Shown here: positions 1,063-16,671 of the stretch, piece by piece | Layout of the letters: every line of letters starts with the position of its first letter | Position numbering within the stretch: position 1 is the stretch's first letter | Source: Bacteroidales bacterium | GTDB lineage: Bacteria; Bacteroidota; Bacteroidia; Bacteroidales; UBA12077 | DNA: 23,500 nucleotides | Assembly (NCBI GenBank): GCA_030600625.1 | Contig: JAUVLS010000002.1 | Coordinates: 1 to 23,500, forward strand | Direction: 5' to 3' | Notes under the pieces: generated by a model | The model's database searches: none | What the model saw: only the letters and a program-made list of their open reading frames with translations | What the model was told of the DNA's origin: nothing | Translations under genes and position numbers: made by a program

Positions 1063-2358
<1,296 letters not shown>

Positions 2359-2393
2359 TTAAGATTAGAATTTTATAAAAATAAATAAGCTAT

Positions 2394-2401
2394 CAAAGTT
2401 A
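2394..2401 (-). promoter_or_regulatory. Promoter -7 element for eno
   Basis: The minus strand reads TAACTTTG, a full match to TAnnTTTG, about 47 nt upstream of the eno ATG and downstream of the rplQ terminator. The -33 element is poor (CTTT with an 18-nt spacer rather than TTTG). The predicted transcript starts near 2388 with a leader of about 40 nt. Confidence 0.5.
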
Positions 2402-2447
2402 GTAAATTTTAAATATTTTAAAGTATAGTAAGGTTTAATAAATGCAT

Positions 2448-2472
2448 AAAAAAAGGGCGGAAAATCCGCCCT
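2448..2472 (-). terminator. Terminator at the end of the ribosomal protein operon
   Basis: On the minus strand AGGGCGGA-TTT-TCCGCCCT forms an 8-bp GC-rich hairpin with a 3-nt loop, followed directly by six more T. It begins 23 nt after the rplQ stop codon and marks the end of the 33-gene cluster. The A-run and hairpin would be a much weaker terminator in the plus direction. Confidence 0.9.
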
Positions 2473-2495
2473 CTTTTAAAATATCTAAATGAAAT

Positions 2496-3371
2496 CTATT
2501 CTTCTTTCTCGCCTGCCGGACGAGCAGGTTTCTCTTCGTTCTTGCCTTCTTTATTCTTTTCCTTTTTTGCAGGAGTCTTATCAGCCCCGCCTGCCGGACG
2601 GGCAGGTTTCTTCTCTACCCCGCCTGCGGAACGGGCAGGCTTTATTTCTTCCTCGCCTGCCGGACGAGCAGGTTTCTTCGCTTTAACAGGTTTTTCTGTT
2701 TTTTCCTTCCCGCCTGCAGAATCTGCCTTGTCGGCAGACAAGCTGGCAGGTTTCGGCTCTTCCTTAGCAGCTTCCTTAACTTTTTCTTCAACAACAGGAG
2801 CTTTCTCCACTTTAACATCTTCAGTAGCAGGAGTTTCTTCAACCCCGCCTTCCGGACGGGCAGGTTTTACTTCGTCTTTTGTTTCAACTTCTTCAGTCTT
2901 TACTTCTTCAGTAGCTTCAACTTGTTCAGTTGCCTGAGTAGTAGTTTTCTTACTTCCTCTTCTACGTCGTGTAGATTTAGCTTTAGTTTCAGATTTAGCA
3001 GCAAGAAGATTTTCGTTATAATCAACTAATTCGATAATACACATATCAGCATTATCACCTAAGCGATGTCCTGTTTTCAATATTCTTGTGTAACCACCTG
3101 GTCTGTCAGCAATTTTACCACTTACTTCTCTAAAAAGTTCTGTTACAGCTTCTTTGTCTTGTAAATGTTTGAATACAAGTCTCCTTGAGTGAGTTGAATC
3201 ATCTTTTGCTTTTGTAATTAATGGCTCAACATACATTCTAAGAGCTTTTGCTTTTGCAGTTGTGGTAGTAATTTTCTTATGTAAAACCAACGATGCTGCC
3301 ATGTTTGCCAACATAGCCTCCCGGTGTGCTTTCTTTCTCCCTAGGTGGTTAAATGATTTTCTATGTCTCAT
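2496..3371 (-). CDS. rplQ: Large-subunit ribosomal protein bL17 with a long repeat-bearing C-terminal tail
   Basis: L17 sits near the polypeptide exit tunnel of the 50S subunit. Residues 1 to about 125 are a standard L17 core ([16 protein letters not shown] at the start, then [24 protein letters not shown]). The family is usually about 115-160 aa; this one is 291. The remaining ~165 residues are low-complexity, rich in K, E, P, A and T, and predicted to be disordered. Bacteroidota L17 often has some charged extension, but here six GC-rich palindromic repeats lie inside it and encode KPARPAG-type units at about residues 169-176, 206-221, 233-240, 244-251, 254-261 and 280-287. The gene starts 4 nt after rpoA and is last in the operon. 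The frame stays open across the tail and the terminator follows at a normal distance, so a frameshift is unlikely. Confidence 0.96.
2512..2864. repeat. Six in-phase copies of a 17-bp GC-rich palindromic repeat inside rplQ
   Basis: Copies lie at 2512-2528, 2590-2606, 2623-2639, 2656-2672, 2713-2750 (an expanded variant) and 2848-2864. The best copy reads CCTGCC-GGACG-GGCAGG on the plus strand, commonly flanked by CG on the left and TTT on the right. Intervals between starts are 78, 33, 33, 57 and 135 bp, all multiples of three, so every copy is read in the same frame as K-P-A-R-P-A-G. The three 33-bp-spaced copies form near-tandem 11-residue units ([33 protein letters not shown]). Either a dispersed palindromic element entered the gene and spread, or a local minisatellite expanded. 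Confidence 0.9.
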
Positions 3372-3375
3372 CCTT

Positions 3376-4368
3376 TTACTCTTTGTCTAATTTATACTTA
3401 GTTATATCCATTCCAAATGTAAGATTCATTTGGCTAAGTAAATCTTCTAATTCAGTTAATGATTTTTTACCAAAGTTTCTAAACTTTAATAAATCGTTCT
3501 TATTATATTTAACCAAATCTCCTAATGAATCTACTTCAGCAGCTTTTAAGCAGTTCAATGCTCTTACTGAAAGATCCATGTCAACCAATCTGGTTTTAAG
3601 AAGCTGACGCATATGTAAAACTTCTTCGTCAAACTCTTCATTTTCATATTTTTCATCTGAATCCATTGTAATCTTTTCATCAGAGAATAACATCAAGTGA
3701 TAAATAAGAATTTTTGCAGCCTCTTTTAATGCTTCCTTTGGATGAATAGAACCATCTGATTCGATTTCGAAAACAAGTTTTTCAAAGTCAGTTTTTTGCT
3801 CCACACGATAATTCTCAATTGAGTATTTAACGTTTCTGATAGGAGTAAAAATTGAATCAATTGCTATCACACCAAATTCGCTGTCAACGGGTTTGTTTTC
3901 TTCAGACGGGACATAACCTCTACCTTTATTTATAGTGATTTCCATTTGAAGTTTTACATCCGATTCCATTTCACAAATTACGTGATCAGGATTTAAAACT
4001 TTAAAATTGGTTGAAAAATTATTTATATCTCCGGCTTTAAATTCATTCTGCCCTGTAATAGTAACAGTAAACTTTTCATCTTCTGCTTCTTCTACATTAC
4101 ATTTAAAACGTACCTGCTTTAAGTTCAGGATTATTTCACTTACATCTTGAACAATACCAGCTAATGTAGAAAATTCATGTTCTACACCCTCAATTTTTAT
4201 TAAAGTGATGGCATATCCTTCTAATGATGATAAAAGAATCCTTCTCAAAGAATTGCCGACAGTAATTCCATATCCAGGTTCTAAAGGACGAAATTCAAAC
4301 TTGCCATAGGTTTCGTTTGCTTCGACCATTATGACTTTATCGGGCTTTTGAAATGCTAAAATTGCCAT
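3376..4368 (-). CDS. rpoA: DNA-directed RNA polymerase alpha subunit
   Basis: Scaffold for RNA polymerase assembly; its C-terminal domain contacts upstream promoter DNA and activators. The 330-aa length is usual. The N-terminal assembly domain carries [20 protein letters not shown] at residues 32-51. An acidic linker (about 236-250, [14 protein letters not shown]) leads to the C-terminal domain with [11 protein letters not shown], where R269 and N272 correspond to the E. coli DNA-contact residues R265 and N268. The domain ends with [15 protein letters not shown]. It lies between rpsD and rplQ as in the alpha operon of most bacteria. Confidence 0.98.
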
Positions 4369-16637: not shown

Positions 16638-16671
16638 ACTTCTGAATAATTAAAACTTCTGAATAATTAAA
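16638..16671. repeat. Perfect 17-bp tandem duplication at the rplC/rplD junction
   Basis: ACTTCTGAATAATTAAA occurs twice in direct succession (16638-16654 and 16655-16671, plus strand). One unit codes for the last residues of L3 and the other covers the stop codon and the short gap to rplD. Removing one unit would give ...CAG AAG TAATGG, with rplC ending at TAA overlapping the rplD ATG. Confidence 0.95.

Follow-up and report, generated by a model that had tools for sequence, protein, structure and literature searches.

We identify the GC-rich palindromes embedded in the tail of rplQ, with a probability that we put at about 0.8, as copies of a mobile palindrome that is REP-like and non-autonomous. 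They lie in a window (the whole 23.5-kb stretch of DNA analysed) that represents a Bacteroidales-type ribosomal-protein region and has 60% of sampled 31-mers in common with the nearest genome, G001. The encoded L17 consists of a conserved part of about residues 1–120 and a K/E-rich tail from about residue 125, and this tail holds five 21-bp units and one 42-bp composite (Table 1), with a predicted in-frame reading KPARPAGG/E. Searching with at most three mismatches placed CCTGCCGGACGGGCAGG at 2512, 2590, 2623, 2656 and 2848 and nowhere else in the 23.5 kb, against a chance expectation of 0.00 in 100 shuffles of the window; the perfect copy is its own match on the opposite strand as well. Every start-to-start interval between the rplQ copies is a multiple of three, bearing out the first-pass annotation, which had described in-frame GC-rich palindromes here. 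Its count of six holds for five separate units, while the sixth, at 2713, turns out to be part of the composite at 2709–2750, which contains two palindromes; the 17-bp repeat unit it proposed has to be extended to 21 bp, the CCCG on the left being conserved at 77–97%. The further proposal that the repeats had lengthened L17 from 115–160 to 291 aa fails, as the units account for just 49 residues (5 × 7 + 14), leaving an L17 of about 240 aa. Because copy-free L17 already measures 240 aa in the sister genome G012 (L027) and 306 aa in another Bacteroidales (L054), the tail was not made by the repeats. Rfam returned no matches at the gathering score for window positions 2300–3500. Elsewhere in the window, between ribosomal genes at 16638–16671, lies a perfect 17-bp tandem duplication, ACTTCTGAATAATTAAA.

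Table 1. rplQ and the palindromic units in its tail (window coordinates)
Feature	Positions	Strand	Basis
rplQ, ribosomal protein L17, 291 aa	2496..3371	(-)	Pfam L17 over residues 20-116
Unit 1, family 1, CTCG/CGAG stem variant, PARPAGE	2508..2528	(-)	sequence comparison
Unit 2, family 1 consensus, PARPAGG	2586..2606	(-)	sequence comparison
Unit 3, family 1, CGTTCCGCAGG variant, PARSAGG	2619..2639	(-)	sequence comparison
Unit 4, family 1, PARPAGE	2652..2672	(-)	sequence comparison
42-bp composite: family 2 unit nested in the loop of a decayed family 1 unit; encodes 14 residues	2709..2750	(-)	
Nested family 2 unit (TCTGCCTTGTCGGCAGACAAG), orientation opposite to host unit	2722..2742	(+)	
Unit 5, family 1, PARPEGG	2844..2864	(-)	sequence comparison

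The presence of copies in rplQ differs site by site among the sister genomes G001, G003, G012 and G016. The sites of units 2 (2586) and 4 (2652) are exactly empty in all four; unit 1 (2508) is filled in G003, G016 and G001, in the last with a nested copy, and exactly empty in G012; and unit 5 (2844) is filled in G001, exactly empty in G012 and G016, and falls in a region deleted from G003. Unit 3 (2619) is common to the window and G003 and empty in G012, with adjoining bases also missing in G001 and G016, and the composite recurs in G003, is represented by a remnant in G016 and is missing from G001 and G012. Further comparisons come from rpsP, where the second copy of G001 faces an empty site in G003 at 99.6% identity over 240 bp and the third an empty site in G016 at 96.9% over 225 bp, both free of gaps. 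A loose empty-site filter passed 31 of 108 distinct copies, not all of which had enough flank for testing; several of the 31 are weak (low identity, nearby gaps, or a match that is itself another palindrome), and the argument here uses the gap-free cases and rplQ. The empty sites in rplQ, rpsP and alaS are nucleotide-exact, with neither target duplication nor deletion, and from these sister-genome comparisons we infer that the unit moves as a discrete 21-bp insert. No fixed target motif was found in the flanks of copies from the genus, and a purine^pyrimidine preference appeared only in the prophages of one genome. Dispersed copies and exact empty sites in sisters are what the initial idea of an amplifying palindrome colonising the tail in frame called for, the tail being of low complexity.

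Read in the L17 sense, the unit is CCTGCCCGTCCGGCAGGCGGG, 21 nt made up of CCTG + CCCG(T)CC + GGCA + GGCGGG, in which CCTG forms the tag and GGCA the loop, the stem having 6 bp and a single bulged T. Across 70 copies from G001, G003 and G016, chosen by the 17-bp core, the 21 positions are conserved, and outside them there is a weak A/T bias reaching at most 66% for one letter. In a set of 94 copies, the CCTG is kept in 91, the GGCA in 84 and the bulged T in 93. Stem pair 5/19 is C–G in 67 of these, T–A in 18 and neither in 9, and pair 6/18 is C–G in 85, T–A in 7 and other in 2; Watson–Crick cells amount to 524 of 564, which 0 of 2000 shuffles equalled, a shuffle count that is not a probability since the copies include orthologues and subfamilies of uncontrolled relatedness. 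The unit folds at −10 to −11 kcal/mol. Because the minimum-energy fold of family 1 is a competing hairpin, CCTGCC/GGCAGG, which differs from the covariation-supported tagged form, the tagged hairpin rests on covariation, not on energy.

Related families have the same tag and loop (CCTG CCTTGTC GGCA GACAGG and CCTG CCTGAC GGCA GTCAGG). Within 638 kb of G016 and G013 contigs without a family 1 match, perfect-stem CCTG/GGCA hairpins number five, which places this tag–loop pair joint first, tied with AAAA/TGAA; among the tags of GGCA loops, CCTG (5) is followed by CTTG (3), and among the loops of CCTG tags, GGCA (5) is followed by a loop with 2. The stems of all five are CCTGAC or CCTGTC, and none is family 1. 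The numbers are small, the pair ranking fifth in G016 alone (2) and joint first in G013 alone (3). This count replaces an earlier one over 396 kb of G016, which favoured CCTG/GGCA but was biased, being made on copy-bearing contigs with four of the six hits known beforehand.

Searching related genomes for the palindrome confirmed that it is dispersed: G001 has 13 exact copies of the 17-bp core, and the 17-mer with at most one mismatch occurs in 19 of 59 relatives, for which a reversed-pattern control gave 0 matches. By rank, these are 16 of 20 genomes of the genus, 2 of 5 from the remainder of the family and 1 of 34 from the remainder of the order. The genus members that lack a core match are G005, G007, G010 and G015, two of them only 78–86% complete; G001, G003, G016 and G412 are copy-rich. 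Across the phylum, the 21-mer with at most one mismatch was recovered from 19 of 395 sampled genomes, belonging to 18 genera, against two genomes with one match each for the reversed control. The order-level distribution is patchy, with 6 of 149 genomes positive and this genus supplying two of the six, and many of the compared genomes are incomplete assemblies. In G412 (L330, L328, L329, L332), inverted pairs of the 21-mer, spaced by 128–149 bp, belong to a longer repeated element that ends in palindromes (CACCGTCATT...ATGACGGTG) and looks like a larger MITE bearing the unit. In G139 (L333, L334, L335, L337), the 21-mer lies in a longer common context, preceded by AAAAAGATT and followed by a GGAAAAGC-like sequence, as if a larger repeat had received the unit and then been amplified.

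The survey of host genes covered all 20 places in G001, all 25 in G003 and 23 of 28 in G016. By our codon score, the 58 distinct sites in these genomes divide into 37 coding-like, 9 ambiguous and 12 non-coding; as about 85% of the examined G016 DNA lies under frames of at least 100 aa, genes are struck slightly below their share, yet are not avoided. The first-pass remark that such palindromes are common between genes therefore holds only in part: most sites in these three genomes lie within genes, and 11 of the 14 sites scored in other Bacteroidota are non-coding. Hosts with profile support encode L17, S16, Thx, an HU-SPOR protein, UvrA, an FlpD-type oxidoreductase, a biotinyl protein and a PspC protein; a MutS-type protein read as MutS2 and a class II synthetase read as GlyRS are further hosts, and S1 and AlaRS were identified by reading. 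Since the unit spans seven codons and all six of its frames were observed to read without stops, most in-gene insertions would be survivable. Such dispersed, in-frame insertions in many unrelated genes, on both strands and in several reading frames, support the likeness to Rickettsia palindromic elements (RPEs) drawn at the outset, and the L17 tail is probably a tolerant landing site in which the inserted peptides have no function of their own.

In alaS, the insert sits in the AlaRS core between GNWSFG(D/N) and YFKKEA and occurs at the identical base in five genomes of two families: G001, G009 and G004, and, in the other family, G139, found through the phylum scan, and G457, found with a pattern built for the filled alaS site. 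The copy is perfect in G001, 21 nt long and altered in G009, and decayed in G004. The filled G001 site compares with empty ones in G003, G012 and G016 at upstream identities of 96–98%, and its product has a 7-residue insertion relative to the solved human-type cytoplasmic AlaRS. Among 16 members of the genus searched, 14 gave the region, 3 of them filled and 11 empty; in the genomes round G139, the filled site was matched in 2 of 26. Because upstream identities follow the species and not the insert, the unit must have been either gained more than once at a single base or lost exactly more than once, and the intact copy of G001 beside three empty closest sisters leads us to favour repeated gain.

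Copies also nest within one another. In the cases seen, family 2 lies inside family 1 at one loop point, CCTGCCGGA^CGGGCAGG on the plus strand or an altered form of it: in the window composite, the last rplQ site of G001, rplQ of G013, the HU-SPOR genes of G016, G003 and G001, and S1 of G003. Un-nested orthologues exist for three of these, namely G001 rplQ (window, G003 and G016), HU-SPOR (L139 against L179, 151 bp at 93.4%, gap-free) and S1 (L134 against L150, by reading). In other Bacteroidota, the two sides of the target are complementary at 0.36, 0.54 and 0.43 at the first three positions in 28 copies with readable flanks, several of which come from one G412 repeat family and are not independent; the composition-only expectation of 0.26–0.28 was computed for two other sets rather than for these 28. 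By eye, several of the copies in other Bacteroidota sit in the middle of other palindromes, which suggests that hairpin loops are a preferred target there. This preference is not general, because targets in the genus are less complementary than expected (0.10–0.22 against 0.28 over positions 1–9).

The exact unit is also contained in 17 stretches of viral contigs. IMG genome 2820306284 carries 37 copies (at most two mismatches) in 67.7 kb, with up to 13 in 14 kb, an upper figure for density since the stretches were fetched for matching; L389, L390 and L382 are its unit-dense prophage contigs, and several copies fall within one 1054-aa frame of L390. Two tail-sheath paralogues, 68% identical where aligned, differ at three of the six inserts by gaps of exactly seven residues, the alignment not being clean at the other three. 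Among the best matches, sheaths from phages of Lactobacillus and other Firmicutes are 26–33% identical to the prophage sheath, a likeness from which the host may not be one of the Bacteroidota; a search of a 5.8-billion protein set scored 7993 candidates and found no tail-sheath homologue at the cut-off. Single exact matches in GC-rich (58–68%) viral contigs, where chance is possible, were excluded from the evidence.

Several other explanations have to be weighed against a mobile palindrome. A local minisatellite, grown by slippage or unequal recombination within rplQ, would account for the three copies that form a 33-bp tandem-like array there (period 33, 2.9 copies), and the first-pass annotation had offered it as an alternative. 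We judge it very improbable: the unit occurs genome-wide, the rplQ copies have their own separate, exact empty sites in sisters, and only 21 of the 33 bp are in common with copies elsewhere. A genome-wide signal motif, of an uptake or Chi-like kind, that arose by point mutation and was then selected would agree with the many copies in few genomes and with exact conservation across genera; however, exact 21-bp gains against empty sites imply insertion, not mutation, so that this account is refuted wherever a sister is empty and scarcely credible overall. A functional KPARPAG module that gene conversion spreads, and that selection favours where ribosomal or nucleic-acid-binding proteins have tails, is improbable too. 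It would explain why 27 of the 37 coding-like sites are in the PARPAG (L17) frame (binomial p 6e-14 against 1/6) and why L17, S16, Thx and S1 (S1 by reading) are among the hosts, but 12 of the 58 sites are non-coding, the other 10 coding-like sites are spread across four further frames (the sixth being unused), UvrA, GlyRS and MutS2 are unrelated hosts, and copies differ between sisters that are 96–98% alike. The prophage contigs of IMG 2820306284 have mixed frames, the PARPAG frame being used at only 2 of 19 coding-like sites. Because this set lacks the bias, selection appears the best explanation for it, in preference to targeting, in a comparison that runs across different hosts.

It is also conceivable, though in our view rather unlikely, that a RAYT of the genus moves the unit, which would then be an ordinary REP with a new tag. 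Y1_Tnp matches occur in 21 of 24 relatives, some of the genes having motifs (NHIH, YIHNNP) that resemble Bacteroidetes subclass 2.6 as presented in PMC6006769, and a single-strand hairpin logic and the missing target duplication would fit. Against this, the unit has no GTAG tag and no fixed target, and it flanked no examined Y1 gene: four overlapping sets, covering a subset of the Y1 matches and including loci that end at contig ends, gave 0 of 30, 0 of 18, 0 of 30 and 0 of 26, with one 4-mismatch match in the last. In G014, which is 96% complete, 5 copies occur without any Y1 match, and copies and Y1 matches correlate with a Spearman coefficient of 0.34 (p 0.23, 14 genomes). One Y1 gene, present in the second and third of these sets and located on contig C442 of G009 (L234/L242), holds the unit internally, directly after the tyrosine of a YIHNNP-like motif. 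We considered it as a self-carried REP and rejected this; its closest full-length relatives have 182–188 aa and their central part is missing in G009, so that the gene reads as a decayed one struck by the unit. Near a Y1 gene of G012 (C28, L235), another repeat, AACTACGGGTGTAACCCGTGGGAAAGGGTGCAAGCC, and a variant of it occur at 1664, 2062 and 2456 and possibly represent a RAYT-linked REP.

Comparison with known systems places the mobile palindrome close to REP and RPE elements. The GC clusters of yeast mitochondrial var1 are GC-rich palindromes that interrupt, without loss of frame, a gene encoding a ribosomal protein; the genome is A/T-rich, and the clusters vary between strains. They differ from our unit in being organellar, of other sequence and longer, reportedly about 40–50 bp. 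Single-stranded DNA elements of the IS200/IS605 type insert 3′ of a fixed tetra- or pentanucleotide, whereas no fixed flank accompanies the unit in the genus. MITEs are accompanied by a target-site duplication; the unit brings an exact 21-bp gain, and its empty sites are of unchanged length. RPE-1 is said to be longer than 21 nt. According to PMC3733652, MITEs measure 70–300 bp with terminal inverted repeats of 15–30 bp; that paper, together with PMC6006769, presents REPs as dispersed, mostly intergenic, tagged stem-loops of 20–40 bp. GTAG-tagged REPs are matched by the unit as a stem-loop in many copies per genome (the 13 exact cores of G001), but their hairpin carries GTAG or GTGG at its foot in place of CCTG (91 of 94), and they flank a RAYT gene, as the unit does with no Y1 gene among those examined, and are mostly intergenic, whereas the unit lies mostly within genes in three genomes of the genus. 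PMC6006769 further describes subclass 2.4 RAYT genes that bear in-frame REPs within themselves. CGTC-tagged REPs, as described in PMC3733652, have a terminal unpaired CGTC, 8–9-bp stems and a short CCA-like tail, and underlie two RPE families (RPE-4, RPE-6) without a transposase; the same paper reports palindromes of this kind from Bacteroidetes and lists tRNA synthetase and uvr genes among REP hosts. The unit differs from these in its internal CGTC, 6-bp stem and CCTG end, and shares with them in-frame insertion in unrelated genes without an associated transposase. A palindromic amphipathic repeat coding sequence, as outlined in the abstract of PMC2996958, is likewise a palindromic coding repeat found across microbes, but is a tandem protein repeat, unlike the dispersed 21-bp insert here. 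In the literature covered, which left most subscription journals outside, no description of the 17-mers, the 21-mer or KPARPAG was found; the papers that came up dealt with REP/RPE elements, further known relatives or unrelated subjects. The unit works like REP/RPE elements without a GTAG or CGTC tag, and is shorter, codon-sized and present across a phylum, its hosts including ribosomal and tRNA-synthetase genes.

For the REP-like mobile palindrome that we prefer, a trans-acting enzyme, for which a RAYT would be the natural candidate, may recognise the tag and hairpin in single-stranded form and paste the unit without target duplication, with a preference for hairpin loops or any DNA that is exposed. 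Selection would keep copies where the protein is pliable, as in the K/E-rich tails of L17, S16 and S1. We would go further only tentatively, and may well be mistaken, in regarding the CCTG-tagged, GGCA-looped units as a third REP-like super-family, specialised in coding DNA and living inside essential genes by means of its seven-codon length and six open frames. Such a super-family would cross phyla, from Bacteroidota chromosomes to Firmicutes-like prophage contigs with about one copy per two kilobases, and a putative single-strand enzyme would insert it into hairpin loops and, more than once, at a single alaS base.

The question of how tiny protein-coding palindromes move dates, to our knowledge, from their description in Rickettsia. 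Rickettsia is an obligate intracellular germ and hard to work with. The present system offers a short unit whose sites are exactly empty in sister genomes; its nested copies expose a fixed target within the unit, and separate lineages carry it at the same base of alaS, a universal gene. As the unit adds seven residues to essential proteins, seemingly without killing the cell, its copies may amount to a natural scan of insertion tolerance.
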